A DNA stretch of 64,000 nucleotides from NCBI RefSeq assembly GCF_002744755.1, contig NZ_KZ319288.1, forward strand, positions 620,001 through 684,000, read 5' to 3'. Below are positions 5,354 through 58,502 of this stretch, one piece after another. This DNA is from Leeuwenhoekiella nanhaiensis (GTDB lineage Bacteria > Bacteroidota > Bacteroidia > Flavobacteriales > Flavobacteriaceae). The number at the start of each line of letters is the position of its first letter. Within the stretch, counting starts at the first letter, position 1. The notes beneath the pieces were generated by a model. That model was not told the origin of the DNA. It searched no databases and saw only the letters and a program-made list of their open reading frames with translations. The translations under genes were made by a program, and so were the position numbers.

Positions 5354-5369
5354 ACGAAATCGATTACGC
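5354..5369. promoter_or_regulatory. LacI-type palindromic operator (site A)
   Basis: ACGAAATCGATTACGC matches the window consensus ACGCAATCGATTGCGT at 13 of 16 positions and has the central CG of LacI-family operators. It lies 87 bases upstream of the GH31 start and about 20-35 bases downstream of the transcription start predicted from the promoter at 5398-5430. That is a position suited to repression by blocking polymerase. Confidence 0.55.
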
Positions 5370-5397
5370 TTTTAAATGTTTATTTTACATTTAAAAC

Positions 5398-5430
5398 CAA
5401 AAATACATATAAACCCGAGAAGTATCCAAA
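5398..5430 (-). promoter_or_regulatory. Bacteroidota-type promoter for GH31
   Basis: On the minus strand the -7 element is TATTTTTG (5398-5405), fitting TAnnTTTG. A TTTG -33 element lies at 5427-5430, with a 21-base spacer. The predicted start is near 5391, giving a leader of about 120 bases that contains operator site A. Confidence 0.5.
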
Positions 5431-5443
5431 TAAATTGGGAAGA

Positions 5444-8400
5444 TTATGACTTGATTTTGAACAGGGTAAGCGGCCTGTCGTTATTGGCAATGATAAGATA
5501 GGGACTACTGCCAACGACCACCTGCTTCATCTGTTTCGCGTTAAGATCGTTGTAAAAACTGATGTCTTTAAAGGGTTTCATTCCACCCTTTGAATCGCCG
5601 AGCAAAACATAACCCACGTTAGAATCATACTTTACAGTTTCCACTTCCGCTTCATGAATTGCACCTATACCTATTACGTCCAGATGGCCATCCTTATTTA
5701 CATCAGCAAAGGTGAATGACATCGTTGGGCCCAGCTGAGCCAGAACAGGCAGGTGTTTGATTTTAAAGTTTCCGTTACCCAGATTTTCAAGGTAAACCGA
5801 TTCAAATTCTTTGGCTTGTTTGTGGTAGGAATTGGCAATCTGCTCGCTACCGTAAATGTCAGTCAGTGTTGAGTTCGCAAACTCCTTATAGGTTTTGATT
5901 TTTTCGCTCACAAACGAATTTTGCATCGTAGAGCACTCCTTACCGCGTACAGGCACTAAACTGCCTTTATACACCTTACTTAAAATCATATCGTAATTGC
6001 CGTCGCTGTCGAAGTTGTTCCCATAGATATGCAAGGGTTTTTCTACGGAAGGATGAAATTTATTGTTTGCGCCCAGGTTTCCTACGAAATAATCCAGGTC
6101 GCCATCCTGGTCAAAATCAATTTCAGAAATAGTATTCCACCAGCCGGAGGTTTCTTTTAGCGCTTCAATTTCTGAAGGCTGAAAGCTTCCGTTTTCATTT
6201 TTGAAAACTGTAACAGGCATCCACTCCCCTGCTACCAACAAATCGCGATCGCCGTCACCGTCGTAGTCCGAAAGGATCAGATCATTAATCAAGCCTGCTT
6301 CTGCAAAGGCAGGGGCAACTTTTTCAGTTACATCGCTAAATTTTCCAACCTGATTTTCTAAAACATAGGAACGTGGCGACAAGGGGTATTTACCGGGAAC
6401 AATTCTTCCTCCCACAATTAGGTCGAAGTCACCGTCCTGATCGTAATCTAGGGAAACCACGGCTTTAGAACCGGTTAGCATTTTTGGCAAAGCCGAAGAA
6501 GCGCGAAAATTCCCCTTTCCGTCATTCAGATAGAGGCGGTCTTGCAGTTTGCTGTCATTTTCCTGCAACTCATAACCGCTGCTGGCAACATATAAATCCA
6601 TATCACCATCTCCGTCAGCGTCAAAAAAGTGCGCTCCGTTATCTTCAAAGGCCTTATCAGCCGCAAATGCAGGCTGAGTTGTTTGTGTAAACGTCCCACC
6701 GGCCTGTTGCAGGTACAATTGTGCCGCCTGACCGAGACCTCCACCCAAAAATACGTCTTCGAGACCGTCGTTATTTACATCTGCAGTTTCAAATGCGGGG
6801 CCTTGTTGCGATTGCTTTTGTGGCAGTAATACCTGTCTTGAAAAATCATTAAAATCATTTTCTTCGTGCGCATAGGTCAGCCCAAGTTCCCGCGGATCTA
6901 CGCGTTCAAAATGTTCAGGACGTTCATAAGGCGTTTCAACAGCATTACCAGCTTCAGCCTCATTTAAAGTCAGGAATTGATTAGCCTGAACATCTTCTAA
7001 AATTGAAACCTTTCCGGTGTTCCAAACCACTTCTATTTTGGAGATTTGCTGCTCTTCACCTACCCCAAAATTTAAAATCGGGGAAACCGAAGATTGATAT
7101 CCCCGGGATAAATAAAGCTCCTGATATTGTTGCGTACTGTCTGTGTACACTTTTACCTTGGAGCCTATTGCAAGCGGGTTTTTAGCATTGCCTTTCAACT
7201 TAAGGCTGATGAAATTTGCGGTGGAATTATTGCGGTAAATACCGGCCTCATCCTCCAGATTGTTTACAACCAGATCCAGGTCACCATCGTTATCCAAATC
7301 CCCGTAAGCCACTCCGTTTGAATTCACCGCCTGAGTAAAGCCCCAGTCTTCAATCACTTTTTTGAAAGACAAATCCTTATTATTCTTAAAGGCATAATTC
7401 TGAAGCTTATCTGAAGGCATTTCTTTAAGAATGCTATCGATAGGCATTTGTTCCAAAGAACCTTCGTTGGCATCAAGAAACCTGCTAAAATCCTGATTGG
7501 CAATTTCGCGTTTGATCCCGTTTGTAATGAAAATATCCTTGTAGCCATCACCGTCAAAATCTGCGATAAGTGGCGCCCAACTCCAGTCAGTCTTCGACAC
7601 TCCTGAAACCTGTGCGATATCTGTAAAATAACCGTTTCCGTTGTTTAGATTAAGCACATTAGACATATACGGAAAATGAAAACCGGCCTCAACAATCCAC
7701 CAAAATCCTTCGGTGTTCATACTGGCCATATTTTGTTTTCCGCGCTGGTGATCTTCCGCAGACATATCTAAAACCAGTAAATCAGGTAAAAAGTCATTGT
7801 TGATATCCGCAAAATCAGATCCCATACTGCTGTAGGAGATGTGTTTCATTTTGGTATTGATATCGTTAGCAAACGTGCCATTCTTGTTGTTGATGTAAAG
7901 CTTATCGGGCGTGATGAAGTCGTTAGCCACAAAAATATCGGGCCAGCCGTCGTTGTTAAAGTCTCCAATAGAAGCACTAAGACTGAATTCCTTATTAATC
8001 AAACCGCTACCCGGAGTAACATCGGTAAAAGTAGACCCGTCATTGCGGTAGAGGTGATCTGAAGTTTGCGGGTAAAACTGGTCGTCATTAACGATTGCAT
8101 TAAGGTCAACCGAATTTAAAAAGTCATCCCGGTGATTGATCAAATACATATCGAGATCGCCATCCCGGTCGTAGTCTAAAAAGTATGCCTGAATGGAAAA
8201 ACCGTCGTCTGCAATTCCCCATTTGGCAGCTTCTTCGTTAAATGTACCGTCCTTTTGATTGACAAACAGCTTATTTTTACGTTCAAGGCTATTTCCCATA
8301 GAAGCCGATTTGCAAACGTAAATATCCAGATAGCCGTCGTTATTAATATCTATCATCGTGACGCCGGTAGTCCAGCCTTCGGCATCTGCAACACCTGCTG

Positions 8401-10724: not shown

Positions 10725-12992
10725 TTAGTTTACTGCAAATTCTATTTCGGCCATTTTAGGAGCTCCTAATGCCGCGCTACGTTTCATAGGGCTTGCACCT
10801 CCCACATAAAGCCGGAATGTACCAGGCTCAATAGTCTTAGAGCCATCTTCAAGCACAAGCTGAAAGTTTTCGGGCTTGATCTCAAATGTTATTTTCTCAG
10901 AAGCACCGGGTTCTAGAGTAACGCGTTTGGTATTTATAAATTGAAAATTAGGCACCCGAACCGAAGCTTCCAGGTCTGAAATGTATACCTGTACCACTTC
11001 GTCTGACTTCACCTTACCGGTGTTGGTCACGGTCACTTCAAGATTCAGACTTTCGTCCTTTGTAACCTGAGTTTTATTTAAAGCGGCATTACTGTATTCA
11101 AACTGTGTATAATTCAGCCCAAAACCAAACGGATACAAGGGCTCCTCGTTCATATACTTATACGTACGCCCTTCCATGGAATAATCTTCGTAGGCAGGTA
11201 ACTGATCTAGTGATTTAGGGAAGGTAATAGGTAATCTTCCTGACGGAGAAACATCACCAAAAAGTACATCTGCAATCGCAGTACCACCTTCTTCGCCGGG
11301 ATACCACACGAAAAGCACAGCATCAGCCAGCTCCTGAACCCGAGCAAGATCTACAGGACTACCTCCTGTAATAAGTGCAATAATTGGTTTACGATCTTCA
11401 GGATTTCTATCAGCCATTTCACGCAAATCTTCCAAATATTGAATTTGATTAGGAGGCAAACCATAATCCAAGCGATCTCCCGCTGTATCTGAATCTATCG
11501 AGTCGCCTTCCTCACCCTGAAGCGTGCTGGATAAACCCAAAACGACTAGCGTCACATCGCTGTTTGCCGCATTCCCGGTTGCATAATTAATAGGGTTTCT
11601 AGAGTCTTTGTTTAACATGGCTCCCTGGCGGTATTGCAACTGACTGGTAGGACTTATCGCTTCGCTGATACCTTCAAGAATGGTTACCATATTTGAATTA
11701 ACACCATAATAATTACCCAGAAGAACTTCCGTACTTGTGGCGTTCGGGCCGGTTAGGAAATATTTGGGCAGGTCCTTTTTAAGCGGAAGAATTCCATTAT
11801 TCTTTAAAAGCACAATACTTTTTTGAGCAGTTTCGCGTGCTAAAGCGCGGTGTTCTTCACTATTAATCACCTCAAGCGAAAGCGCATCGTATGCATTGCT
11901 TCCTTTAGGATCGAATAATCCCAGCTTAAAACGGGTTTTGAGCAAGAGTGCTAGTTGCTCGTCTATTTCGGCTTCCGTAATTAAACCTTGCTCTACCGCT
12001 TCAGGCAATGCACTGTAGGTGTCTCCGCAATTTAGGCTTACTCCGCTTTTTACTGCCATTGCAGCAGCACCAGCCTTGGAAGGCGCAGTACCGTGACCAC
12101 CCTGACCTTTGGCAACATATAAATCAACAAGAGCAGCGCAATCGCTAAGAATATGTCCGTCAAAATTCCATTTTTGCTTTAAAACCTCATCAAGCAAGTA
12201 CTTATTAGTACAACACGGTTCGCCGTTAGTACTGTTATAGGCACACATAACGGCTTCCACATTCTCATTGACTAAAGCTTCAAATGCGGGCAGATACGTC
12301 TCATACATATCTTTTAAAGTCGCGGTGGCATTAAACTCGTGTCTTACCTGCTCGGGACCACTGTGCACTGCAAAATGCTTGGCGCAGGCAGCTGTTTTTA
12401 GATGATCAGGATCATCACCTTGCAGACCTTTTACAAAAGCAACACCAATCAATGACATCAGATACGGATCTTCGCCGTAAGTCTCCTGACCTCTACCCCA
12501 ACGCGGATCCCTGAAAATATTAATATTAGGCGTCCAGAACGTGAGACCGTTATAACGGTTAAAATTTCCCTTTTCGCTGGTTGCGTTGTATAAAGCCCGG
12601 GCTTCATCTGAAATGGCATTGGAAATTCGATACGCCAAATCTGCATCAAAGGTGGCACCTATCCCTATCGCCTGCGGAAAAACAGTGGCAGCAGAAGCAC
12701 GCCCGACTCCGTGAAGGGCCTCATTCCAATAATCATAAGGAGGAATATTTAATCGCTCAATAGCCGGGGTACTATTCATCATCTGAGCCGCTTTTTCTTC
12801 AAGGGATAACCGCGAGATCAAATCTGCTACACGCTCATCTACAGATAACGAAGTATCATAAAAAGGGAACTCAGGATTTTCAGACTGGTTTTTTTCAATC
12901 GTTTGCGGAGATTGTTTTTGATCTGTATTACAAGACAGAGTCAACAGGCAAGCAACAAAAAAAACTATTCGGTAATAAAAGAGATTGTTCAT
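10725..12992 (-). CDS. GH3 beta-xylosidase-like lipoprotein (no PA14 insert)
   Basis: A retaining beta-glycosidase of family GH3, 755 aa, with a lipoprotein signal (lipobox LTLSC, Cys21), so anchored in an envelope membrane. The order is TIM barrel (about 50-370), alpha/beta sandwich (about 395-620) and C-terminal Fn3-like domain (about 660-750). The nucleophile is Asp284 in HILSDCAAL; the Ser-Asp-Cys context is typical of xylosidase/arabinosidase GH3 enzymes. The acid/base Glu is probably in LQGEEGDS. It is the first gene of the minus-strand operon GH3-SASA-CRTAC1-like, divergent from susC1, with a LacI-type site 73 bases upstream of its start. The likely role is trimming xylose from the non-reducing end of oligosaccharides; arabinosidase activity is possible. 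Confidence 0.9.
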   Translation of the reverse strand: MNNLFYYRIVFFVACLLTLSCNTDQKQSPQTIEKNQSENPEFPFYDTSLSVDERVADLISRLSLEEKAAQMMNSTPAIERLNIPPYDYWNEALHGVGRASAATVFPQAIGIGATFDADLAYRISNAISDEARALYNATSEKGNFNRYNGLTFWTPNINIFRDPRWGRGQETYGEDPYLMSLIGVAFVKGLQGDDPDHLKTAACAKHFAVHSGPEQVRHEFNATATLKDMYETYLPAFEALVNENVEAVMCAYNSTNGEPCCTNKYLLDEVLKQKWNFDGHILSDCAALVDLYVAKGQGGHGTAPSKAGAAAMAVKSGVSLNCGDTYSALPEAVEQGLITEAEIDEQLALLLKTRFKLGLFDPKGSNAYDALSLEVINSEEHRALARETAQKSIVLLKNNGILPLKKDLPKYFLTGPNATSTEVLLGNYYGVNSNMVTILEGISEAISPTSQLQYRQGAMLNKDSRNPINYATGNAANSDVTLVVLGLSSTLQGEEGDSIDSDTAGDRLDYGLPPNQIQYLEDLREMADRNPEDRKPIIALITGGSPVDLARVQELADAVLFVWYPGEEGGTAIADVLFGDVSPSGRLPITFPKSLDQLPAYEDYSMEGRTYKYMNEEPLYPFGFGLNYTQFEYSNAALNKTQVTKDESLNLEVTVTNTGKVKSDEVVQVYISDLEASVRVPNFQFINTKRVTLEPGASEKITFEIKPENFQLVLEDGSKTIEPGTFRLYVGGASPMKRSAALGAPKMAEIEFAVN

Positions 12993-13064: not shown

Positions 13065-13080
13065 ACGCAATCGGTTGCAA
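13065..13080. promoter_or_regulatory. LacI-type palindromic operator (site B)
   Basis: ACGCAATCGGTTGCAA matches the window consensus at 13 of 16 positions. It lies 73 bases upstream of the GH3 start and overlaps the only candidate -7 element for that operon. Confidence 0.5.
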
Positions 13081-13378: not shown

Positions 13379-13394
13379 GCGCAATCGGTTGTTT
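13379..13394. promoter_or_regulatory. LacI-type palindromic operator (site C)
   Basis: GCGCAATCGGTTGTTT matches at 12 of 16 positions. It overlaps the -33 TTG (13389-13391) of the susC1 promoter, so a bound protein would compete with sigma factor. Confidence 0.5.
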
Positions 13395-13419
13395 TATAAG
13401 TGTGATTTCTATACATTTG
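13389..13419 (+). promoter_or_regulatory. Bacteroidota-type promoter for susC1/susD1
   Basis: The -7 element is TACATTTG at 13412-13419, a full TAnnTTTG match. The -33 TTG is at 13389-13391, 20 bases away. The predicted start is near 13426, giving a leader of about 190 bases to the ATG at 13615. Operator site C covers the -33 element and site D lies in the leader. Confidence 0.5.
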
Positions 13420-13502: not shown

Positions 13503-13518
13503 ACGAAATCGATTGAGT
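13503..13518. promoter_or_regulatory. LacI-type palindromic operator (site D)
   Basis: ACGAAATCGATTGAGT matches the consensus at 14 of 16 positions, jointly the best in the window. It lies in the predicted susC1 leader, 97 bases before the start codon. With site C it could support cooperative binding or a repression loop. Confidence 0.55.
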
Positions 13519-13614: not shown

Positions 13615-16600
13615 ATGGAAAGCGTTCTACTTTTTCAGAAGAAAACTCTCAGGTATCTTGGGCTATTCTTCTTAAGTGTATTTTTCTGCTCCGGAATTTA
13701 TGCTCAATCAACAATTACAGGTACAGTGACCGACGGTACTGGTCCCATTCCTGGCGCAAACGTTATCGTTAAAGGAACCAACAACGGCGCAGTTACCGAT
13801 TTCGACGGAAATTATACCTTAAACAATGTACCCGGCGATGCTATTTTGGTATTCAGCTTTGTGGGTTATGAGGCCAAAGAAGTACCGGTAAATAACCGTT
13901 CTCAGGTAAATGCGGTACTTGAAAATGACCTGCAATCTTTAAGTGAGGTTGTGGTTATTGGTTATGGTACTCAAAATAAGGAATCTGTAACGGGATCTGT
14001 TGTATCTCTTGATGGTGAATCTCTTGAAGAGGTTCAGGTAGCAAACTTTCAGCAGGCTTTACAGGGTCGTGCGCCTGGTGTACAAATTACAACCACCAGC
14101 ACCAGACCGGGAGCTAATAATGCATCAATTCGTATTCGTGGGGTTCGCTCTTTATCAGGAAGTAATGATCCATTAATTGTACTTAACGGTATTCCCTTTT
14201 CAGGAGGAATTAACGATATCAGTATTAATGACATAGAAAGTCTTGATATACTCAAAGATGCTTCTGCAACCGCTATTTATGGTTCTCGAGGGGCTAACGG
14301 GGTTATTCTGATTACTACCAAAACCGGTAAAAAAGGACAAAAGGCAACGTTTAGCTACAACACTTACTATGCTGCTAAAGAAGTTTTTGCGAAATACCCT
14401 ATGATGAATGGTCCTCAATTTCTAGCTCTGCGAGAAGCGACTGGGATTACAAGGGATGGTGTACCTATCTATCAGAATTTAGGAGCGGATGAAGATCCCA
14501 ACGTAAACACAGACTGGCAGGACTTAATTTACGGAACAGGTTTGCAAACCAATCACGACTTTAGTGTTTCTGGAGGAACAGAAAATGGAAGCTACAGCTT
14601 TGGTGGGGGTTATTTTAAAGAGACTTCTGTTTTACCTGTTGAAGATTTTCAAAGATATTCGCTTCGCGTACAGGTCGATCAGCAAATAGGTGCATTTCGT
14701 TTTGGCTTGAATTCTATTATGAACTGGAACGTCACTAATGCTGCAGGAACCGGACTCTACGGAAATTTAAGTGCTACACCTATTTTAGATCCGTATAATG
14801 AAGATGGTTCTTTAAAACGAGTTGTAAGTATGCCAGCTGATGACTTTTGGGTCACTACGCGTAGTACTCTAGAAGCTATAGGGGATGGTCGTGTTAACCT
14901 GCAAAAGGATTTTGGAACCTATAATAATTTGTACGGTGAAGTTAGTATTCCTGGAATTGATGGATTAAAGTACCGTTTAAATATTGGTTTAAACCTCCGC
15001 ACCAGTAGAGATGGTTTCTTTAACGGACAGGGAGTTGCAAATATTGACCCATTGTCGCCCAATAATGCTGGAAACAGCAGCAGCTTATTTCAGGATTATG
15101 TTGTTGAAAATTTATTGACTTATGACAAAACCTTTGCTGACAAGCATAAGGTTAACATCGTTGGTTTATATTCATTTCAAAATTCAAAATTCGAAGATTC
15201 CTTTTTAAACGCCAGAAATATTCCGAATGAGGATTTTTTATTCTATAACCTTGATGCGGCTTTATTGGAAGACATTACCGGTTACGGAAGTAATTATGGT
15301 GAAAATGGTTTAAAATCTGTGATGGGACGAGCCATCTATCAATATGACAACAGATACCTGTTAACAGCTACTGTTCGTGCAGATGGATCTTCAAGATTAG
15401 CACCCGGAAATAAATGGGTTACCTACCCCGCAATCTCTTTGGGATGGAATATTGCGAATGAAAAATTTATGGAAGATGTAGAATGGGTTAATTCCTTAAA
15501 ACTCCGTGCAGGTTATGGAGAAACCTCTAATCAGGCGGTTAACAACTATGCTACACTCGGAAACCTTGGAATTCGCAATTACAACTTTGGAGAGACTTTC
15601 GCTACCGGATATTTTGTAAACGAACTTCCTAATGCTACATTAGGCTGGGAGTTTTCAGAAACTTATAACTACGGTATCGATTTTGGTTTGTTCAACAACC
15701 GTCTTTCTGGTACTGTTGAATATTATCTGACTAAAACGAACGATATTCTTTATCGCGTAGGTCTGCCATCAACATCTGGGGTGGGATCCTTTGTTGGAAA
15801 CATTGGTGCCACAGAAAACAAAGGGGTAGAAGTAGCTTTAAATGCTACAATTCTAGACAATCCAGATGGTTTTACCTGGGATTTTGGGGTCAACCTCTAT
15901 ACGAATAGAAATGAAATCACCTCACTTGCGAGTGGTCAGGATAGAAACGAAGGTCAGCTCTGGTTTGTGGGATCTCCTATAAACGTAATTTATGACTTCA
16001 AAAACATAGGTCTTTGGAATGAAGATGATCCTGATTTCCAGTATTTACAAACCTACGAACCGGGTGGAAATGTGGGTATGATCAAGGTAGAATACACCGG
16101 TGAATTCAATGAAGATGGTTCACCTGTACGTCAGATAAACGCAGACGATCGTCAGATCATCGATCCAACTCCTGATTTTCAGGGAGGTTTCAACACCCGC
16201 TTAGCTTACAAAAACTTTGATTTTAATATGGTTGGTGTTTTTCAAAGCGGTGGTACTTTAGTAAGTACTTTATACTCTTCAGGAGGTTACTTAAACCTGC
16301 TTACCGGTAGAAGAAACAATATTGACGTAGATTACTGGACTCCTACGAACACCGATGCTAAATATCCTGTTCCAGGAGGTATTCAGGCAGGCGACGGACC
16401 GAAATATGGAACAACAATGGGATATTTTGATGGTTCGTTTTTGAAGGTTCGTGCTATGACATTAGGTTATAATTTTGAATCTAATCTAATTGAACAAGCT
16501 GGACTACAGAGTTTACGCCTTTATGCCACCGTTCAAAACCCATTTGTTCTGTTTTCACCTTATCATAAAGAATCTGGAATGGATCCTGAAACCAACTCGG

Positions 16601-16734: not shown

Positions 16735-16746
16735 AAAAAAGTGATT

Positions 16747-40883: not shown

Positions 40884-41277
40884 AAAGCAGTTCAAAATAA
40901 TTCGGTTTATGGTTAGACTAAAAAAATATCAAATGGTTTAAAAGACTATAAGTCTAAAATGCGTAAATTACAAAAAGTGTTTTGATTACATTTATGCATA
41001 GGTTTCCAAAGCTTTAATCTGGATAATTTTTGAGGATAATCATCTATTTTTGACATTATAAACATTTTAATTCAAAAAAGATTTAGAAACAGACCCTCTC
41101 AATGATTTATCTGTAACATCGTGATTTTCGGAACAGAAAAATAATCCACGTACTTTGTTATACTAAAAAGCAGAATAGGGCATTATTACATAGAATCAAC
41201 CAGGTATGGAAAGCTCAAAGTGTAATTAAATAAAATGCATCACATTCAATAATTACTGGCAAAGGCTCAAAAAATTT
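40884..41277. promoter_or_regulatory. Divergent region between catabolic operon and HTCS gene
   Basis: There are 394 AT-rich bases without a gene. Short copies of AGACT occur upstream of the GH97 start: TAGACTA at 40914-40920 and the small palindrome AGACT-ATA-AGTCT at 40944-40956. They are possible HTCS binding elements. A TATTTTTG that fits the -7 element lies at 41045-41052 on the plus strand but has no -33 at the right distance. No LacI-type site is visible here, unlike the susC upstream regions. Confidence 0.4.
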
Positions 41278-46493: not shown

Positions 46494-46509
46494 CTTTTAA
46501 GTTTTGTTA

Positions 46510-47997: not shown

Positions 47998-48076
47998 AAT
48001 AAAATCTTAAAAAATAGCATATAAAGAAACAAAATATTTAGTGTGAATCAAACACGTTAATCTTTTTTTGATCAGC

Positions 48077-51000
48077 CTAATTCAGTTTTAAAGCCTGCAT
48101 ATAATCTGAGTTCTTTGCCGCCAAAATATAGGACGTCTCCCCAAATTGAAAGGCTTTGAGATTCTTTACATCCCCCGGTATAAAAACTCCGCTTTTTGCA
48201 GGACTGAGTGCTGTGAAATTACCCTTACCATCGCCTGCAAGAAAAATTCCTCGTGATGAGTCATTGCGTGGGGTTTCAATTTCAGACTGGTACAGATTAC
48301 CCGCGAGTACTGCATCAAGATTACCGTCATTATTAAAATCATTTACCACAATCCCGGTTATGCTAGACAATTGTGCTGCTCTGGGCAATTGATGCATCAC
48401 CATCTTACCGTTTCTATTTTCCAGATAAATACTTGCAAATGATTTTACCTGATAATGCAGCGAACTGTTTAATAATTTTTCAGAATACACCTCTCCAAGG
48501 GTTGCTTCCGAAAAACTCGCGTAGTCTTTAAATTTCTGCTTGATACCCGGAATTTGCTGAGATGAGCATTGTCTTCCACGCAGCGGATATTGCTTACCAT
48601 CGTTGTAATAGCCCAATACAATGTCTTCATTTTCATTGTCATCGAAGTCTCCCGCATAGATATCGAAAGGCTCTTCTTCAGAGGCCTTGTATTTATAATT
48701 GAGGCCATTATTACCCAGCATATAATCGGTATCGCCATCGCCATCAAAATCGCCCGAAGCGATACTCCACCACCAGCCCGTAGTATCCTGATTGGGTAGA
48801 ACCTTCTGTGAAACTTCCACAAAGCCATTTGTAGTATTTTCAAAAAAACGAATGGGCATCCACTCCCCTACAACTATGATGTCTGGTCTGTTATCTCCAT
48901 TGAAGTCAGAAACCGAAGCAGCGGTTGCCATGCCTAAATCTTTGAATTCTTCAGGCTGCAAATTTTTAGCTACTTCAAACTTAGGATTACCGGGAGTTCC
49001 ATTATTTTTCAGGAGAAATGAGGAAGCCGGAAGCGGATATTTCCCCGGCGTCTGACGTCCCAGAACCAGTAAATCCTGCTTTCCGTCACCGTCAAAATCC
49101 TCGGCGTATACCTTGGCACCGCTTATGTGTAAATCAGGTATAGCGTTGCCTGCTACTGTAAAATTCCCCTTTCCGTCATTAAGGTACAGCCGATCATTGA
49201 GCAAATTTGAATTTTTGAAGAATTCGTACCCGCCGCTGACCACATATAAATCCTGATCGCCATCGCCGTCGGCATCAAAGAATGTAGCATCAATGTCTTC
49301 GTAGCTTTTATCTTCGGTAAAAGCGGCTACAGTTTTTTGAATAATTCCCTGTGAATTCTGAACAAAAAGAGAAGCTGCCTGATCTTTAGCGGCTCCTACA
49401 AAATAGTCCTGCAGACCATCGTTATTGACATCACCCACGGCAAGTGCAGGACCGAATTCAGACATTTTATGAGGCAATAAAACCTGATTTTTAAAGTCAT
49501 CATAGCTGTTTTCGACATGCAAATAGACGGGAAATGCATCTTCATCGGCCTGAGCAAAAAGTCTGTTTTCTTTCGGTTTTTGAATACTCGCATCTGGCTC
49601 TGAAGCATTTTGTTCTTCAAAAATCAACTCCTGATTTACTGCAACATCCTGTAGTACTTCTTCTTTCCCGCTGGTCCATACCACACGAACCTCATCAATG
49701 GTCTCAATCTTGTTGAGGCCAAAATACAGCACAGGTGCTACCGAAGATTGAAAACCTCTGGTAAGGGTAAGCTCCTGCATCTGAGTCGTATCGCCTGCTT
49801 TGACATAAACACGATTACCAATACCCATAGCATTGGCAGTTTCGCCTTTAAATTTAACTCTCAAATAGTTTGAGCGCTCTGAAGATTTATTGTTAAATAT
49901 CGAAGCCGGATCGTCAATATTATTAGTTACCAGTTCCAGATCGCCATCATTATCGAGGTCAGCGTAAATACCGCCGTTTGAAAAACCTTTAAAACTAATA
50001 TTCCAGGAGTCATTGACCTTTTCGAAAGCATAATCTCCTTTATTTTGGAACATAAAATTGTCGAGCTTTTCTTCGGGGATGTTTTGGCTCCAAAACAGCA
50101 AACTATCCTGAGCGATTCCTCCCTGCTCTTCAATACGGTTGAAATAGTCATTATCATTGATTTCACGACGTGTTCCGTTTGTGATGAACAAATCTTTAAG
50201 ACCGTCATTATCAAAATCGGCAAATAAAGGTCCCCAGCTCCAATCTGTAGATGAAGTACCTGTTATTCGGGAAATATTGGAAAAATCGGGTATGCCTTCC
50301 GCATTAAAAAACCCGTTATTCATTTGCATACAATTATGCATGTACTGATAGTGAAATCCCGCATCTACCACGCTCCAGAACAAATCAATATTCATACTGG
50401 CCATATTGGCCTTTTTGCGTCGGTTTATTTTAGCATCCATATCAGCCTGAAAGAAATCGAGCAACCCATCATTATTGAAGTCGGCAATGTCAACTCCCAT
50501 CCCGTAAAATGCAGTCTGTGCGGTAGCCTCTTTAACGACTTCAGTAAAGGTGCCGTCGCACTTGTTGAGATACATCATATCTGGTGAGTTGAAATCGCTT
50601 GATACATAAATATCGGGCCAGCTATCGTTATTTAGATCACCAATTGTTGCGCTAAGCGAAAGGCTGTAGGATCGCAAACCAGCTTTATCGGTGACATCTA
50701 CAAACCCGTTGCCGGTGTTTTCGTAGAGGTGATCTGTCTGCAGGTCTGAAGGATCGCGCATATATTGCTCATAAACCCAGGTTGGTGAACTGAATTTTGT
50801 AGGCGGATAATTAGCCTGATACATATCTAAATCCCCGTCTTTATCGTAGTCAAAAAAGGTAGCCTGTATGCTGTTACCTTCGTCAGCCAAACCATATTCA
50901 GTAGCACGCTCTGTAAAGGTATTATCCTGATTATTGATGAATAACTGATTGGTGCGCGGTTCAAACTTTCCGCTTACCGAGCAATAGATATCGAGGTAGC

Positions 51001-51415
51001 CGTCACCGTTGACATCTGCCATCGTCACCCCGGTGTACCAGCGTTCATCACCTCCTACTCCTGCAGGGATCGTAATATCTTCAAATTTTAAATTGCCTTT
51101 ATTCAGATACAGTTTATTCTGCACCTGATTTCCGGTAAAATACAGATCTATAAGTCCGTCATTATTGATGTCACCGGCTGCAACACCACCTCCCATATAA
51201 ATGTAATTGTAGGTGAAATAGTTAAGCGAATCATTTTCGGTCAACGCGTTTGTGAATGAAATTCCGGTGGCTTCTGCACTGAGACTTTCAAAGACTTTAA
51301 AATCGGTATCAAGCTCAGGAGTTTGATTTTCTTCGGTCTCTGCACAAGAACATAGAAAATGGGCCACTAAGCCAATAATCAAAATCTTTGATAAAATCTG
51401 TATCCTAAAAATCAT
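48077..51415 (-). CDS. CRTAC1-like FG-GAP/VCBS repeat lipoprotein with ASPIC/UnbV domain (copy 2)
   Basis: A lipoprotein of 1112 aa (signal with lipobox near LCSC, Cys24), paralogous to the 1094-aa protein at 5444. Repeats carry calcium-loop motifs (DINNDGLIDLYF, DVNGDGYLDIYC, DYDKDGDLDMYQ) in two propeller blocks, with an ASPIC/UnbV domain at about 510-590 (TRGFQSSVAPVLYFG). The first 100 or so aligned residues of both copies are mostly identical by eye. It follows SusD2 after a 90-base spacer containing a strong hairpin, and precedes the haloperoxidase by 79 bases. It sits where a PUL normally encodes its surface glycan-binding proteins, so a binding or scaffolding job beside SusCD is plausible but unproven. 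Confidence 0.85.
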   Translation of the reverse strand: MIFRIQILSKILIIGLVAHFLCSCAETEENQTPELDTDFKVFESLSAEATGISFTNALTENDSLNYFTYNYIYMGGGVAAGDINNDGLIDLYFTGNQVQNKLYLNKGNLKFEDITIPAGVGGDERWYTGVTMADVNGDGYLDIYCSVSGKFEPRTNQLFINNQDNTFTERATEYGLADEGNSIQATFFDYDKDGDLDMYQANYPPTKFSSPTWVYEQYMRDPSDLQTDHLYENTGNGFVDVTDKAGLRSYSLSLSATIGDLNNDSWPDIYVSSDFNSPDMMYLNKCDGTFTEVVKEATAQTAFYGMGVDIADFNNDGLLDFFQADMDAKINRRKKANMASMNIDLFWSVVDAGFHYQYMHNCMQMNNGFFNAEGIPDFSNISRITGTSSTDWSWGPLFADFDNDGLKDLFITNGTRREINDNDYFNRIEEQGGIAQDSLLFWSQNIPEEKLDNFMFQNKGDYAFEKVNDSWNISFKGFSNGGIYADLDNDGDLELVTNNIDDPASIFNNKSSERSNYLRVKFKGETANAMGIGNRVYVKAGDTTQMQELTLTRGFQSSVAPVLYFGLNKIETIDEVRVVWTSGKEEVLQDVAVNQELIFEEQNASEPDASIQKPKENRLFAQADEDAFPVYLHVENSYDDFKNQVLLPHKMSEFGPALAVGDVNNDGLQDYFVGAAKDQAASLFVQNSQGIIQKTVAAFTEDKSYEDIDATFFDADGDGDQDLYVVSGGYEFFKNSNLLNDRLYLNDGKGNFTVAGNAIPDLHISGAKVYAEDFDGDGKQDLLVLGRQTPGKYPLPASSFLLKNNGTPGNPKFEVAKNLQPEEFKDLGMATAASVSDFNGDNRPDIIVVGEWMPIRFFENTTNGFVEVSQKVLPNQDTTGWWWSIASGDFDGDGDTDYMLGNNGLNYKYKASEEEPFDIYAGDFDDNENEDIVLGYYNDGKQYPLRGRQCSSQQIPGIKQKFKDYASFSEATLGEVYSEKLLNSSLHYQVKSFASIYLENRNGKMVMHQLPRAAQLSSITGIVVNDFNNDGNLDAVLAGNLYQSEIETPRNDSSRGIFLAGDGKGNFTALSPAKSGVFIPGDVKNLKAFQFGETSYILAAKNSDYMQALKLN

Positions 51416-51456
51416 ACGTCTAAGGGTTCAAAGAAATTAAAGGTTTCATAAACAAG

Positions 51457-51486
51457 GAAGCAACACTATAAAAATAGTGTTGCTTC
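51457..51486 (-). terminator. Intercistronic hairpin after susD2 (terminator or processing/stability element)
   Basis: A perfect 13-base stem with arms GAAGCAACACTAT / ATAGTGTTGCTTC and a 4-base loop of A (T in the RNA sense). It starts 20 bases after the susD2 stop. On the minus strand the bases after the stem are CTTGTTTAT, a poor T-tract, so partial termination or protection of the susCD message is more likely than full termination. Confidence 0.75.
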
Positions 51487-51505
51487 AATGGAAAACCAAT
51501 TCAAA

Positions 51506-52990
51506 TTAATAACCAGGATTCTGATCCTCCTGACTAATTGCATCATTGGCACTTATTTCCCGGTCAGGAATAGGCCAAAGCTCGTGTTTACCTTGTTGGA
51601 AACCGGTCCCGGCAAGTTCTGTACTTGCGATACCCCATCTTATAATATCATCAAATCGAACCTGCTCTCCGGCTAGTTCTACTTTACGCTCATGAACAAT
51701 CGCATCAAAAACCTGTTGTTTGGTCAAATTATCAGCAATAGGATCAAGCTCTGCACGCTCTCGTACACGATTGATAAGAGTAATAGCCTCTGGAGTGCGG
51801 TTTGTTTCGTTTGCAGCTTCAGCTTTCATGAGCAAGACATCTGCATATCGTATCACTTTAAAATTGATACCTGATTCCTGTTCTTCTGCTGTACGGCGGT
51901 AGTAGTTTTGATATTTTCTCCATCCTGCAGGACGTATTCCCGCTGTAGTTGATAAATCACTTTCTACAATCACACCTTCGCCATTGTTATAGGTGTCTCC
52001 TTCAAAGTAAAAGTTTTCGGCTGAACGAATATCACCTTCTTCGTATTCATCTAATAAATCCTGTGATGGGTATACGTTAAACCAATCTAATACGCCATAG
52101 TCCTGACCTCTAAAGGTAGACTCATTAAAGCCCTGAGCACTAACATTAGAATCCCATTTATTAGCTGTACCGATGGCACGGTCAAACTCAATTTCAAAAA
52201 GAGACTCAATTCCGTGTTCGGTTTCTTCCTTGAAGTTATCAAAATAATTATCCTCTAAGTCGTAACCGGTGATATCATCAAAGGCATCATATGCCAGATC
52301 ATATTGCTTTTGAAACAAAAGTGCTTTACCCAGGTAGGCTAGAGCCGCACCTTTAGTTGCTCGCCCATTCAATTCTTCACCTCTTGCAAGTAAATTATCT
52401 GCTGCAAAACGAAAATCTTCAATAATCTGCGCAAAAACTTCGTCACGTGTAGCACGTGGCAAACCTTCTGAGCTTTCAGGAAGACCACTAAACAACGGCA
52501 CACCCCCAAAACGTGTGGCTAGTAAGAAATAATAATGTCCTCTTAAAAAACGTGCTTCCGCTATATATTTATTTTTCAGTCTCTCTGATAAAATAGATTC
52601 CGGAATTTCATTTATGCGATCAATGTTTGAAATTACAAAGTTCGCTTTATTCACACCTTTAAAACAGCTGTCCCAAAAATCAGCGATTTCTGTATTACTC
52701 GAGTCAAACGTAAACCTGCTATAGGTTAATTTGTTTGCTTCTTGCTGCGGATTTGGACTGTTATCCTGCCCCATATTATCGTACATATAGAACAACAATC
52801 GGCTGTAAAGCGCATTGGTTTGATTTTGAGCATACGATGCATTCACCGCAGATCTCACCTGTTCTTCGTTTGTGAAAAATGTTTCCGGACTTAAGGCATT
52901 TGGATTAGTAAGTTCCAAATTACTTTCGTCGCAAGACTGTGTTACCACAAAAACAAGGGCAAACAGTGCAAAAATTTTATAGTTTTTCAT
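51506..52990 (-). CDS. SusD/RagB-family glycan-binding lipoprotein 2
   Basis: The lipoprotein partner of SusC2, 494 aa; signal MKNYKIFALF... with lipobox TQSC, Cys20. The SusD features are the helical RFLRGHYYFLLATRFGGVPL, the TPR-like LAYLGKALLFQKQYDLAYDAF, and the C-terminal LINRVRERAELDPI...VHERKVELAGEQVRFDDIIRW ending in the common IPDREISANDAISQ tail. It is about 150 residues shorter than SusD1 and of ordinary family length. It starts 11 bases after the susC2 stop, and the intercistronic hairpin follows it. Binding of oligosaccharides imported by SusC2 is inferred from the family. Confidence 0.93.
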   Translation of the reverse strand: MKNYKIFALFALVFVVTQSCDESNLELTNPNALSPETFFTNEEQVRSAVNASYAQNQTNALYSRLLFYMYDNMGQDNSPNPQQEANKLTYSRFTFDSSNTEIADFWDSCFKGVNKANFVISNIDRINEIPESILSERLKNKYIAEARFLRGHYYFLLATRFGGVPLFSGLPESSEGLPRATRDEVFAQIIEDFRFAADNLLARGEELNGRATKGAALAYLGKALLFQKQYDLAYDAFDDITGYDLEDNYFDNFKEETEHGIESLFEIEFDRAIGTANKWDSNVSAQGFNESTFRGQDYGVLDWFNVYPSQDLLDEYEEGDIRSAENFYFEGDTYNNGEGVIVESDLSTTAGIRPAGWRKYQNYYRRTAEEQESGINFKVIRYADVLLMKAEAANETNRTPEAITLINRVRERAELDPIADNLTKQQVFDAIVHERKVELAGEQVRFDDIIRWGIASTELAGTGFQQGKHELWPIPDREISANDAISQEDQNPGY

Positions 52991-53001
52991 AATTCTTTTT
53001 T

Positions 53002-55989
53002 TTAAAATGATACATCAAAACCTAGTAATACAGAAACCGGCTGCGGATAATCCCCACGATCAAAACCAACTTCTCCTGCTCTACTTACCACTTCAGGGTC
53101 TAAACCAGAGTAGTTTGTAATTGTTACCAGGTTTTGACCACTCATATACACCCTTAATCGTTTAATAAAATCAATAGCTCCATCATCAAAAGTATATCCT
53201 ATACTTAAGTTTTTAAGACGCATGTAAGAACCGTCCTCTACAAAACGGTCTGAGGCGACAACGTTTTGAGGAGCTCCATCGTAACGCGGTATAGAAGTCG
53301 ATGGATTATTAGGAGTCCATCGATCTAACACCTCAACGCCGGCATTAAACAAACGAGTCATACCTTGCAAATCATAGATATTTGTGTTATAAATATCATT
53401 ACCTGCAACGCCATTGATAAATAAATTGAAGTCGAATTTCTTATAACGGGCATCAAAATTTAAACCGTAAGTTAAATCAGGATAAGGATTACCTATAATC
53501 TGTCTATCAGCAGAGTTAATAGTACCATCATTATTGGTGTCTACATACCGTATGTCACCAGGCTGCACTACATCCTGATCTGGATTTGCTGTAAAAACAG
53601 CATCTACTTCAGCCTGATTTTGATAAATGCCATCGGTAACTAAACCGTAAAAGTGAAATAGTGGTTCTCCCGGCTCAGCTCTTATTACGCGCTCTCCTTC
53701 AAAACCATCAAAGAAAAACTGCTCTGTACTTCCACCAAGATCCAGAACCTCGTTAGTACTGGTTCCAAGATTCACATTTACAGACCAAGTAAAATCACCA
53801 TCATAATCGTTATATCCTAATGCTAATTCTACCCCTTTAGTTTGAACTGAAGCCGCATTAGAAGCAACAGTAGAGCTGCTATACCCAAAAGAAAGCGGAA
53901 GCTGAATATCTACAAGTAACTCATCACTTTTATTTCTATAATACTCTAATGATGCAGTAAGTTTATTGTTTAGTGCAGCAAAATCAAGACCCAGGTTTAG
54001 CATACTGGTCTCCTCCCATTTTAAATCAGGATTTGCCAGGCCGTTAGGAGTAGTACCTATAGCCGCTAAGCCCCCTACAGGATAAACAAAATCACTAAAT
54101 AATGTCGTTGAATACCTGTAATCTGCAATGCGGTCACTACCGGTAATACCATAACTACCTCTCAGTTTAAGAGTACCTATATTGGAATCACTCATAAACT
54201 CTTCACGGGCAATATTCCACCCTAAAGAGAAAGCAGGGAAATTACCCCATCGGTAATTAGCACCAAATCGAGAAGAAGCATCTCTCCTGAATGAAGCTGA
54301 AAGGATGTATTTATCATCATAATCGTAATTTAAACGGGCCAGATAGCTCAAACGGTTGTTCTCAAAAGTTGTACTTCCAGCAGATTGTTGCTCGCTACCT
54401 AATTCTTTAATTTCATTGGTAATGGTATTACGCGCCTCTGCACTAAAACTTTCTGTTTTACTGGTATACTGCTCAACCAAAGCTAAAGCTTCAAAGTTGT
54501 GAACTTCATTAAAAGTCTTTTTATAGGTTAAACTGTTGTCAAAGGTAATTGCCTGACCCCTTGTACTTCCGCGTAATGCAAAGGCAAAGTTTTGAAAATG
54601 CGTTGCCCCTAAATTATCATCATTAAAGGCCGGAGTAAATTGATTCGTTAATCCATCAAAAAAGTCTATACCTACCTGTGATCTTACACTTAACCCATCT
54701 AGAATCTCATATTCTGCATAAACATTTCCAATCACAGCTACGTTTCGGGTTTCAAAATCACTAAGTGTTTGAACCCGCACCGGATTTTCGGCATCCTGAC
54801 CGTCAGCTGCACTGTTAGGCCCCTGAAAACCACCTAAATTGTCATCATTATAAATATTAAGATATGGAGCTGCCTTTATAGCGTGTTCAATCAATGAACG
54901 ACCACCGCTTTCTAAAATGGGCTTCGATTTACTAAATGCCACCGACATCGTTTCTCCAATCTTGAAGTTACCGGTCGTATATTGAGATGTAGCCCTAAAA
55001 GAAAAACGCTCAAAACCAGAATTTATAACTGCACCTTCCTGATCCTGATAGTTGGCAGAGAATCTATACGTACCATTTTCATTTCCGCCGGAATAAGCAG
55101 CGTTATAATTTTGAATAAGACCCGACTGAAAAATAGCATCCTGGAAATTTGTATAATTATTTAAAAAATCTGCTGGTCTGTCAATCGTTGCACCTATTTC
55201 ATTAGCAAATTGCAAGTATTGATCGGTATTTAAGGTATTATAACGCTTATAGATGGTTTGAAATCCACTTTGGGCACTAAAAGAAAGTGTCCCACGTCCC
55301 TGTTTTCCACTTTTGGTAGTTACTAAAACCACACCATTAGATCCCAAAGATCCATAAAGAGCCGTAGTTGAAGCATCTTTTAAGATAGATACCGATTCAA
55401 TGTCTGATGGGCTAATCCCGGAAAGGTTGCCAACAATAACACCATCTATAACATATAGCGGATCATTATTACCAAAAGTCCCCAGACCTCTAATACGTAC
55501 ATTGGGTGATGTACCCGGTGCACCTGCGTTAGTTACTGTAACCCCCGGAGCTCTACCCTGTAAAGCGGACTCGGCATTGGTAACCGGTAGTGCATCAATT
55601 GCATCAGAATCTACTGTAGAAATTGCACCGGTAACTTTAGTACGGCTTTGAGAACCATAGGCTACCACGACGACATCCTCTAAAGCTTCAGCATTCTCTT
55701 GTAATGTAATATCAAATGTAGTTTGCGAACCAACCGGGATTTCCTGGTTTTCAAAACCTACATAAGTAATAAGAAGTGTATCGTCCGCAGAAACTCCATC
55801 GATTGAGAACATCCCATCAAAGTCTGTTGAAGCTCCTTTATTAGTACCCATTACAGCGACAGAAGCCCCTGGTAAAGGCAAACCTGAAGGATCTTTTACT
55901 GTACCCGTAATGGTTTTAGTCTGCGCAAAAATATCTGCGCCGGTAAGCAGCAGAACAAACGCAAAAATTGCAAGTTTAATTTTGGTCAT
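53002..55989 (-). CDS. SusC/RagA-family TonB-linked outer membrane transporter 2
   Basis: A TonB-dependent importer of 995 aa. A signal peptide ending near DIFAQT is followed by the carboxypeptidase-regulatory-like domain (about 25-100, ITGTVKDPSGLPLPGASVAV), the TonB-box-like DVVVVAYGSQ, the plug (about 115-215, with RIRGLGTFGNNDPLYVIDG and DASTTALYGSLGSNGV) and the beta-barrel. The barrel ends VLLGFDVSF, with terminal Phe. It is the first gene of the operon SusC2-SusD2-CRTAC1-like-haloperoxidase-GH10. A promoter and a LacI-type operator lie directly upstream, as for SusC1, which suggests joint control of both importers. The oligosaccharide taken up is not known. Confidence 0.93.
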   Translation of the reverse strand: MTKIKLAIFAFVLLLTGADIFAQTKTITGTVKDPSGLPLPGASVAVMGTNKGASTDFDGMFSIDGVSADDTLLITYVGFENQEIPVGSQTTFDITLQENAEALEDVVVVAYGSQSRTKVTGAISTVDSDAIDALPVTNAESALQGRAPGVTVTNAGAPGTSPNVRIRGLGTFGNNDPLYVIDGVIVGNLSGISPSDIESVSILKDASTTALYGSLGSNGVVLVTTKSGKQGRGTLSFSAQSGFQTIYKRYNTLNTDQYLQFANEIGATIDRPADFLNNYTNFQDAIFQSGLIQNYNAAYSGGNENGTYRFSANYQDQEGAVINSGFERFSFRATSQYTTGNFKIGETMSVAFSKSKPILESGGRSLIEHAIKAAPYLNIYNDDNLGGFQGPNSAADGQDAENPVRVQTLSDFETRNVAVIGNVYAEYEILDGLSVRSQVGIDFFDGLTNQFTPAFNDDNLGATHFQNFAFALRGSTRGQAITFDNSLTYKKTFNEVHNFEALALVEQYTSKTESFSAEARNTITNEIKELGSEQQSAGSTTFENNRLSYLARLNYDYDDKYILSASFRRDASSRFGANYRWGNFPAFSLGWNIAREEFMSDSNIGTLKLRGSYGITGSDRIADYRYSTTLFSDFVYPVGGLAAIGTTPNGLANPDLKWEETSMLNLGLDFAALNNKLTASLEYYRNKSDELLVDIQLPLSFGYSSSTVASNAASVQTKGVELALGYNDYDGDFTWSVNVNLGTSTNEVLDLGGSTEQFFFDGFEGERVIRAEPGEPLFHFYGLVTDGIYQNQAEVDAVFTANPDQDVVQPGDIRYVDTNNDGTINSADRQIIGNPYPDLTYGLNFDARYKKFDFNLFINGVAGNDIYNTNIYDLQGMTRLFNAGVEVLDRWTPNNPSTSIPRYDGAPQNVVASDRFVEDGSYMRLKNLSIGYTFDDGAIDFIKRLRVYMSGQNLVTITNYSGLDPEVVSRAGEVGFDRGDYPQPVSVLLGFDVSF

Positions 55990-56040: not shown

Positions 56041-56056
56041 AATACATCGATTGCGT
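56041..56056. promoter_or_regulatory. LacI-type palindromic operator (site E)
   Basis: AATACATCGATTGCGT matches the consensus at 12 of 16 positions, with one perfect half-site. It lies 52 bases upstream of the susC2 start codon and about 30-45 bases downstream of the predicted transcription start, the same placement as site A at GH31. Confidence 0.5.
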
Positions 56057-56091
56057 AAAACGTACTCAACACAATGCCACACAAAAGTATT

Positions 56092-56120: not shown

Positions 56121-56288
56121 GATGCAACCTCTTTAAATTTTGTTGCATACATAGCGCTCATTACCCGAAAAATCTGGCATTAGCTGTTTTTATAGCTGGA
56201 ATAGGAGTTGTTATCTTAAAAAATATTCTACTTTGGCAGTAGAACGACTTGTTCTTGAATATTTATCATTTTCGCTACTTTTAAACCG

Positions 56289-58394
56289 ATGAAAACTCAT
56301 TTTTTACACCCCTTTTTTCTGGTTTTGACAGTGCTATCTTTTACGGCTTGTAAAAAAGAAGTCGATAGCCAAAAAGAATTTGCCCATACCAATGCCTTAA
56401 TCCACGAAACGAGCCCGTATCTGCTCAAACATGCACACAATCCGGTAGACTGGAAGCCCTGGAGTGATACCCTGTTTGATTACGCCACGCAGCAACAGAA
56501 ACTTGTTTTACTAAGTATAGGTTATGCATCCTGCCATTGGTGTACAGTTATGGAAGAAGAAACTTTTTCCAACGATAGTGTAGCGGCTTTTATGAATAAA
56601 AACTTCATCAATGTTAAAGTTGATCGCGAGGAACGTCCCGATGTTGACCATGTATATATGACCGCCTTACAGCTCATGCGTGGTTCAGGAGGCTGGCCCC
56701 TGAATATGATTTTACTTCCAGATGGTAATCCGGTTTATGGAGGTACCTACCACACCCGAGATGAATGGATGACTTCCATAAAAATGATCGACAGTCTTTA
56801 CAGGGAAGATCCAAAGCGGGCGAAAGAATATGCGAGTGAAGTTACAAGACGCATTCAGGAACTCAACTCGGGCAACAGCACAAATTCCAAAGAAAAGATT
56901 ACTCAGGAGACCTTGGCTGACGGGGTCAACAATTGGCAGAAAAATTGGGATTTTAAAAATGGAGGCTTTGGTAACAATCAGAAATTTATGCTTCCTGCGA
57001 GCCTTAACTATTTACTAGACTTAGCACATCTTACCCAAAATCAGGAGATATTAGCGTTTGTAGAACTTACTCTAGACAAGATCGCGCTTGGCGGTGTTTA
57101 TGATCACCTTGATGGTGGATTTTACCGATACAGTACTAATGCGGAATGGAGCGTACCGCATTTCGAAAAAATGCTCTACGATAATGCTCAGTTAATTAGT
57201 CTTTATTCCAAAGCTTATAAGGCATTTAAAAAACCCCTCTACAAACAACGGGTTACCGAAACAATACAATTTTTAAATGCTTATTTTAAAACCGAAGCCG
57301 GCGATTACATCTCAGCTCTGGATGCTGATTTAGAGGGTGAGGAAGGAGCGTATTATTTATTTAGTGAAGACGAACTTAAAACGATCTCAGAAGAACCCCA
57401 GCTTTTCCGAAATTATTACAATATAGCCTCTAAAAATCAGACTGATGAGGGGCTGTATAATTTATACTTAAGTAAGACCGACACGGTATTTGTGAAGGAA
57501 AATAATTTAAAAGGAGATGAATTCAATACCCTTAAGTCTTCGTGGAAAAATGACTTAAAAGCGATCAAGAAGAAACGCCAATTCCCACTGAAAGACGACA
57601 AAATAATTGTCTCCTGGAATGCGATGATGATTGAAGCCCTTGGAGATGCCTATGCCGCAACAGCAGATGCTGATTATCTTAGACAAGCCGAAGAGACCTT
57701 TCAAGTGCTTACCACTAAGGCGTGGAAAAACGAAGTGTTGATTCATTCCTATAAACCCGGAAGTAAACCCGTAGCAGGCTTTCTGGACGACTATTCGTTT
57801 TTAAGCGCTGCAGCACTTAAATTATATACCCTAACCGGCAAATTTGATTATCTCCATACAGCCAAAGATTTGAGCTCCCAAACCCTCTCCAGATTTGAGA
57901 TTGAAAATTCTTCTTTTTATAAATACAACAGTCAGGATAATCTTATCGCTCCTATCGTTATTACTAATGATGCCGTAATGCCATCGGCAAATGCAGTGCT
58001 GGCAAATAACCTATTGCTGCTGTCGAATATTTTCTATGATGACGATCTTGCGGCGAAAGCTAACGCTATGTTGGCAGCCATTCAGCCTGAAGTTGAAAGT
58101 GCTCCTGATGCCTACGCACACTGGCAATACGTTGCTTTAAAAAAGATATTTCCTTTTTATGATGTAGCAATTGCAGGACCTCAAAGCAAAGCTTTAAGCC
58201 TCGATCTCCATAAATACTATACCCCTAATGCTCTTGTGATTTTTGAAGAGATTGAAACTGAGATTCCGGTATTTGAAAGCAGGTATGTAAACGGTAAAAC
58301 CCTGATTTATATTTGTGAGCAACGCAGTTGTAAATATCCGGTCAGTACAGTTTCTGAAGCTTTGGGATTGATGAATTATCAGCTCTTTCCATAA
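56289..58394 (+). CDS. DUF255 thioredoxin-fold lipoprotein (YyaL/SPATA20-like)
   Basis: A 701-aa protein with a lipoprotein signal (lipobox FTAC, Cys21). Residues about 35-195 are the DUF255 thioredoxin-like domain with [18 protein letters not shown] (Cys82, Cys85), [14 protein letters not shown] and [13 protein letters not shown]. The rest is an (alpha/alpha)6-type barrel related to N-acylglucosamine 2-epimerases ([29 protein letters not shown]). Most family members are cytoplasmic; the lipid anchor places this one in the envelope. The biochemical function of the family is poorly known. It stands alone, divergent from susC2 and 168 bases before the DUF4249 gene, so membership in the PUL is uncertain. 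Confidence 0.87.
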
Positions 58395-58486
58395 AAAAAT
58401 CACGCTAAACAAATAACAATCTAAGAACTGGGTTATTCAGTTTAAGATCGTGAAATATCTTACTTGTGCAATTTAACTTAAAACTA

Positions 58487-58502
58487 AATCAATCGATTGC
58501 GT
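58487..58502. promoter_or_regulatory. LacI-type palindromic operator (site F)
   Basis: AATCAATCGATTGCGT matches the consensus at 14 of 16 positions, jointly the best match. It lies 60 bases upstream of the DUF4249 gene. A weak -7-like TACTTGTG (58461-58468) lies just before it, which would put the site about 15-30 bases after the transcription start, as at sites A and E. Confidence 0.5.

Follow-up and report, generated by a model that had tools for sequence, protein, structure and literature searches.

Discussions of how Bacteroidota control their xylan loci mostly center on activation by hybrid two-component systems (HTCS) or extracytoplasmic function (ECF) sigma factors. In Xanthomonas, a LacI-family XylR reportedly controls xylanase genes together with TonB-linked uptake. 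Judged from passages of the cited reports, to which all our comparisons with published systems refer, Bacteroides ovatus, Prevotella bryantii and Xanthomonas regulate their beta-1,4-xylan systems through LacI-family regulators or HTCS (PMC12125979), and LacI-type XylR and AraR repressors occur in other bacteria (PMC10766802). For Bacteroides thetaiotaomicron, regulon reconstruction placed three loci under dual control by HTCS and AraR (PMC4666351; PMC3878776); in the same species, xylose has been assigned to a XylR of the NrtR family, and uronate-use regulons have been predicted for the LacI-family members UxuR, UxaR, KdgR and UxmR (PMC3878776). The xylan loci of Gramella flava harbor lacI among susC-susD, GH67, GH43 and xylAB, and genes of these loci are induced 2.3-89.6 fold by xylan (PMC5306329). 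Here, we analyzed a 64-kb stretch of the genome of Leeuwenhoekiella nanhaiensis (contig NZ_KZ319288.1, positions 620,001 to 684,000), referred to as the window, which contains a xylan-type locus and in which six related 16-bp sites precede genes for importers and glycoside hydrolases. Very probably, these sites are operators of a single LacI-family repressor that is encoded beside a GH67 gene on another contig, C5.

The AraR system resembles the proposed arrangement in that a cytoplasmic sugar-responsive regulator shares loci, including those for SusC-SusD, with HTCS; it differs in protein family (NrtR), sugar (arabinose) and genus. UxuR, UxaR, KdgR and UxmR are alike in belonging to the LacI family and in their relation to uronates, and are listed under monosaccharide pathways. 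The LacI-family XylR repressors of xylan or xylose use are alike in that LacI-family control extends over xylanase genes, while the likeness to G. flava lies in the LacI gene within xylan loci, the passages of that report containing no operator or regulon (PMC5306329); these latter three comparisons are by description only. In the literature covered, i.e. titles and beginnings of abstracts with most subscription journals lying outside, neither this operator nor a LacI xylan regulon in Flavobacteriia was found. We regard the system as a new regulon of a known kind, as control by HTCS plus a sugar regulator has already been predicted in Bacteroides (PMC4666351). The view in a preliminary description of the window, that a repressor layer over the HTCS would be a new idea, does not stand in the light of such predictions for Bacteroidota (PMC4666351; PMC3878776).

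The sites begin at positions 5354, 13065, 13379, 13503, 56041 and 58487 and match ACGCAATCGATTGCGT at 13, 13, 12, 14, 12 and 14 of the 16 positions. They comprise six, five, four, six, four and six of eight possible palindromic pairs, those at 13379 and 56041 being merely half-symmetric. All six 16-mers named in the preliminary description were recovered and, by our gene list, are intergenic, whereas intergenic DNA accounts for just 7.8% of the window. With up to three mismatches to the consensus, the window holds four matches versus 0.19 expected, a number reached by none of 100 shuffles. The core AATCGATT by itself occurs three times (2.1 expected) and AATCGRTT by itself 11 times (8.1 expected), and thus the signal resides in the full 16-mer. 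A matrix built from the six sites places them at ranks 1-6 within the window, with a coding site at 55793 next in rank. As the ranking of its own training sites by a matrix is circular, independent evidence was sought.

The genome encodes six LacI proteins above the Pfam cut-off, one of which, on C5, adjoins such sites in a second xylan locus; the preliminary description had made its proposal dependent on the presence of a LacI-family gene in the genome. The C5 protein possesses the N-terminal LacI helix-turn-helix (PF00356, 39.3 bits at a cut-off of 27) and a periplasmic-binding-protein-like effector domain (PF13377, 111.8 bits; PF00532, 100.3 bits). Two sites, AGACAATCGATTGCGT and TCTCAATCGATTGCAG, are located between the LacI gene and GH67 and, judged by sequence, an even palindromic operator with a central CG accompanies both this gene and its presumed targets. 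A search with the C5 protein against 299 genomes of the family returned a best match of at least 49% identity in 24, this genome included. The nearest LacI relative (93%) is that of Leeuwenhoekiella sp. SP167. From 20 of the 23 other genomes, 20 kb around the orthologue were taken. K-mer counting in the non-coding DNA of these loci, with no input from the window, recovered CAATCGGTTG in 13 of the 20 (0.05 expected), and the window-trained matrix detected a site scoring at least 17 in 17 of them. Similarly, 28 exact copies of the 14-mer CGCAAYCGRTTGCG were counted in 19 of the 299 genomes, compared to eight copies in eight genomes for the reversed control, and the 14-mer is present in 11 of the 24 orthologue genomes versus 8 of the 275 others (p = 4e-9). 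Of the nine occurrences in genomes without an orthologue, five are situated some 160 bp upstream of a LacI relative that is more distant.

In the best 80 of 401 named loci, some of which stem from the same genomes as the training set, a site scoring at least 20, a cut-off too strict for weaker sites, among them the one in SP167 at 19.9, was present in 18 of 22 at 60% identity or more, 18 of 33 at 50-59% and 12 of 25 at 43-47%, versus 0.3-0.4% with column-shuffled matrices. The genes behind the operators (112 scanned of 145, a sample in which loci around LacI, GH3 and susC are over-represented) include those for GH67 (28), TonB receptors (20), GH3 (17), LacI-type proteins (15, ten by the helix-turn-helix model), UxaC (5), GH43 (5) and GH10 (3). 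Comparison of these loci shows a linkage of regulator clade, palindrome and xylan genes among relatives, as far as genome sequences can reveal it. The reading of the sites as LacI-type operators of a shared regulon, as put forward in the preliminary description, is supported by this joint occurrence. Another palindrome that was enriched in the vicinity of the LacI orthologues was discarded; it is located at the coding start of uxuA in 8 of the 11 places where it was found and is thus not an operator.

In a phylogenetic tree of 107 rows, the C5 protein falls within a clade of 78 rows (support 100/98), with the other five LacI proteins of the genome outside; L258, L262 and L271 occupy very long branches and may be wrongly picked genes. 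The T-[IV]-S-R-A-L stretch of the helix-turn-helix, readable in 74 of the 77 clade loci, served as the search key, and hence its constancy is uninformative; variation is seen in the residues that immediately precede it (S or A, followed by T, P, A or S). The PurR operator is a 16-bp even palindrome with ACGCAA...TTGCGT arms and is alike in length and arms, while its center is ACGT instead of the TCGA found here. The identity of the C5 protein with PurR was rejected (NF007979, 162.4 bits versus a cut-off of 501), so that, of the earlier proposal, the LacI type stands and closeness to PurR does not go beyond resemblance. None of the named NCBIfam LacI equivalogs (CytR, RbsR, CcpA, GalR and others; 18 models listed) was reached, the best being CytR with 225 of 436 bits. 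A single-sequence structure prediction of the C5 protein was poor (mean pLDDT 43, pTM 0.32) and was not used.

It is highly unlikely that the sites instead serve a different LacI paralogue encoded in this genome, or several paralogues whose specificities overlap. For the five remaining LacI genes, the relatives' matrix yields best scores of 2.3, 4.8, 11.5, 6.5 and 3.6 within 3 kb, compared to 19.8 for C5, and across genomes the motif follows the C5 clade. Such a paralogue is, on the other hand, suggested by the LacI gene on C19 (L032:12040), whose promoter carries a palindrome of its own, ACTTAATCGATTTAGT, with the same AATCGATT core and different arms; cross-binding is thus possible, which counts against exclusive recognition by the C5 protein. 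Also in its favor, an identical ACGAAATCGATTTCTT precedes two different susC-type genes, at L026:10736 and L034:9694, the latter of which (C3) lies outside both xylan loci.

The assignment of the sites to the C5 repressor can further be judged by their conservation. A relatives-only matrix, based on 23 sites from 15 of the 20 relatives' loci, ranked the sites at 13065 (24.8), 58487 (19.4), 13379 (17.8), 13503 (16.8) and 5354 (12.2) as the first five of the window. Sites were identified in the GH3 promoters of 15 of 16 relatives (63-90% identity; one genome has a second copy at 49%, which lacks a site and was left out) and in the susC1 promoters of 13 of 16 (at least 57% identity; ten homologues of 36-41%, with a best score of 13.1, were left out). 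In contrast, none of the GH3 homologues (53-59% identity) from 11 genomes without a LacI orthologue has a site (best 5.8; p = 9e-7), a contrast which is weakened as these homologues may be paralogues. A site was also absent from six GH31 homologues (best 8.1) and from four more distant DUF4249 homologues, three of them from one genome, and nine relatives of susC2 (53-58% identity) were mixed, with one site at 20.3, three at 10-12 and five lower. Within the genus, all sites except that at 5354 are identical in SP167, where the flanks are 74-87% identical, and those at 13065, 13379, 13503 and 56041 retain 14-16 of 16 bases in L. aestuarii and L. polynyae, with flanks at 66-71%. Across the three congeners, this amounts to 16 of 16 bases for 13065, 15-16 for 13503 and 14-16 for both 13379 and 56041, the latter at the same place. 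This conservation is above that of most 16-nt windows and not extreme, as 5-26% of windows equal it. No GH31 match was obtained in L. marinoflava at 1e-100.

The sequence comparisons support the assignment of five sites to a common LacI-family repressor as its operators; the equality of all six was rejected, since the site at 5354 is absent in all three congeners examined, which speaks against the proposed regulon at this position. The six-site regulon of the preliminary description therefore holds for five sites, with 56041 as a half-strong member. Whether the set is partly due to chance, with 5354 and possibly 56041 as look-alikes next to genuine sites at 13065, 13379, 13503 and 58487, appears evenly balanced, and such a composition is compatible with regulation by the C5 repressor. 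The failure of 5354 in the congeners points in this direction, as does the relatives-only score of 56041 (6.2, rank 11, beneath several coding positions); the position of 56041 is conserved, however, and both sites are located just after promoters matching the consensus at 9/9 positions.

In L. aestuarii and L. polynyae, susC2 is followed by DUF255, LacI and GH67, with sites before LacI, i.e. at its own promoter (18.3), and before GH67 (29.3). In L. nanhaiensis and SP167, DUF255 is followed by the DUF4249 pair and LacI lies on another contig, which explains the absence of a LacI gene from the window. The LacI-GH67 block (L028:1000-2037; L071; L292) suggests that a rearrangement parted locus and regulator in these two genomes. 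As LacI in L. polynyae lies beyond DUF255, where DUF4249 sits here, the site at 58487 was considered as a left-over operator of a LacI promoter; this was not supported (alignment score 64 versus a shuffled mean of 62).

Genome-wide (4.37 Mb in 49 contigs, the window, C2:620001-684000, representing 1.5%), the relatives' consensus ACGCAAYCGRTTGCGT has nine matches with at most two mismatches. Three of these lie inside the window (p = 2.5e-4) and eight are outside genes, one of them (C10:50614) in an over-extended open reading frame, starting 49 bp before the likely ATG. An equal density inside genes, which according to the preliminary description would speak against operators, is thus not observed for these matches. 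Good sites elsewhere precede the GH10 xylanase and GH67 genes on C5, a GPH-type symporter gene on C1 and, on C14, a xylanase-like gene with a sorting tail that is below the cut-off of its model. Among 171 upstream regions from the fetched contig stretches of this genome, targets included and cut genes such as GH67 left out, three exceeded 12 with the relatives' matrix, those of GH10, the C14 gene and the symporter. The second xylan locus, in the C5 region, holds two genes each for GH10 and GH43, as well as a glucuronoyl-esterase-like gene, a susC gene and a gene resembling HTCS from the start of its translation; the relatives' matrix gives 24.3 for the site before GH10 (L027:4164) and just 10.2 for that before susC (L026:10736).

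Promoters were predicted with the Bacteroidota consensus TTG-N17-23-TAnnTTTG. Matches at 9/9 positions were obtained for susC1, GH31, susC2 and the C5 GH10 gene and at 8/9 for DUF4249 and GH3, and no promoter reached 8/9 at the C5 susC, the C1 symporter, the C14 gene or the C3 susC. Relative to the predicted starts, the operator centers are located at -38 and +86 for susC1, +31 for GH31, +28 for susC2, -36 for both the C5 GH10 gene and DUF4249, and +48 for GH3, which bears out the earlier placement just after the start at GH31 and susC2 and on the -33 element at susC1. L. polynyae retains -38/+84 at susC1 and +32 at susC2. Among 185 site-gene pairs from 93 loci, in which related genomes were counted separately and hence are not independent events, an exact -7 box occurs within 160 nt in 63 pairs, and 40 of 72 boxes start -28 to +35 from the operator center. 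Boxes that set the operator on the -33 element were found in 16 of the 185 pairs (shuffled mean 2.8, maximum 8). The location of the sites on or just after predicted promoters suggests repression. That the C5 protein acts as an activator, or as both activator and repressor depending on position, is most unlikely: sites at -36 to -38 could in principle touch RNA polymerase, but the remaining ones at +28 to +86 occupy positions where activators do not normally work, and LacI-family activators are rare.

Some further observations weigh against operators of the C5 repressor at all these sites. A scan of the genome with ACGMAATCGRTTKCGT at three mismatches yielded 141 + 130 matches versus 198 + 183 for the reversed control, and ACGCAAYCGRTTGCGT with up to three mismatches yielded 40 versus 41 for its control, i.e. 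no excess in either case. Matches to ACGCAAYCGRTTGCGT with exactly three mismatches fall mostly inside genes (just 7 of 31 outside), which is chance behavior; the closer matches alone are informative. The exact CGCAAYCGRTTGCG is absent from this genome and from 13 of the 24 orthologue genomes overall, and 32 of the 80 named loci are without a site of at least 20. At 13.5, no site was obtained in the orthologue locus L086, and L088, another of the 20, has a weak one only, inside a gene; no site is present directly upstream of the C5 LacI gene. The class with the operator just after the start comprises 12 pairs versus 6.6 in shuffled data (maximum 15) and is not significant, and 157 of the 185 pairs belong to neither class.

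With regard to the mechanism, we propose that, in the absence of a xylan sugar in the cytoplasm, a dimer of the C5 repressor would occupy the -33 element or the stretch transcribed first and thereby keep the importers, GH3 and the GH10 operon from being transcribed. Release of the repressor would then be brought about by a product of xylan breakdown (xylo-oligosaccharide, aldouronate, xylose or glucuronate). The HTCS in the locus would supply a periplasmic signal, and thus the importers would need both signals. We give an even chance to the broader hypothesis of a Flavobacteriaceae-wide regulon whose operator has a related counterpart in other Bacteroidota. Under this hypothesis, a single LacI-family protein would sense glucuronoxylan breakdown in the cytoplasm and connect xylan loci lying apart from one another with a symporter of the inner membrane and the catabolism of uronates; it would also gate the importers of the outer membrane over HTCS control, so that uptake would require a periplasmic and a cytoplasmic signal. 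If true, a conserved repressor acting on importers and intracellular steps would explain the coordinated expression of unlinked xylan loci; it would also allow a regulator to be assigned in a sizeable number of genomes from sea and soil and supply a defined operator with which expression could be controlled in Flavobacteriia, and the two-signal model becomes directly testable. The positions of the features are compiled in Table 1.

Table 1. Predicted genes, promoter and putative operators of the xylan locus (window positions) and the LacI gene on contig C5.
Feature	Position	Strand	Remarks
GH31 gene	2814..5309	-	Pfam
Candidate GH31 operator	5354..5369	.	least supported of the set; ~+31
GH3 gene	10725..12992	-	first of presumed operon; Pfam
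Putative operator of GH3-esterase-FG/GAP operon	13065..13080	.	72 bp upstream of GH3 start; best-supported site
Putative operator overlapping -33 element of susC1 promoter	13379..13394	.	its TTG at 13389-13391 is the -33 TTG
Predicted susC1 promoter	13389..13419	+	TTG, 20 nt, TACATTTG; 9/9 consensus positions; layout alike in L. polynyae
Putative second susC1 operator	13503..13518	.	~+86 from predicted start
susC1-susD1 importer pair	13615..18675	+	Pfam
HTCS (hybrid two-component regulator)	41278..45408	+	presumed activator of the same locus
susC2-susD2-FG/GAP-DUF6851-GH10	45411..55989	-	presumed operon; Pfam
Putative susC2 operator	56041..56056	.	one strong half-site ACGCAATCGATG on - strand; ~+28 from predicted start
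Putative operator overlapping predicted -33 element of DUF4249-TonB receptor pair	58487..58502	.	
DUF4249 protein and TonB-dependent receptor	58562..62109	+	Pfam
C5 LacI gene	G000:C5:221003-222037, from first codon on	-	adjoins GH67, with uxuA and SDR genes

The locus in the window comprises susC1-susD1 on the plus strand and GH31, FG-GAP, esterase and GH3 genes on the minus strand, followed by a long run of enzymes (GH43, GH97, esterases, GH3, GH127, GH95, GH43-CBM6 and GH97). The remainder consists of the HTCS, GH10, a second FG-GAP gene, susD2-susC2, DUF255 and the DUF4249 gene with its TonB receptor. For GH3, the nearest NCBIfam models are those of beta-xylosidases, with scores below their cut-offs. 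Between the large run of (debranching) enzymes and the HTCS, at 40896-41277, no operator was detected (best score -7.6). The GTG start given for GH31 is probably too early, as congener alignments begin at residue 14-15. On C10, the good site GCGAAATCGATTGCGT (L030:9614) begins 49 bp ahead of the likely start of a gene that has no NCBIfam match. Finally, a seventh palindrome, ACTCCATCGATTGAGA, is located at 55793-55808 within the beginning of the susC2 coding sequence, at a distance of 248 bp from the site at 56041, and was found at the same place in three congeners; it may represent a second operator or mere coding conservation.

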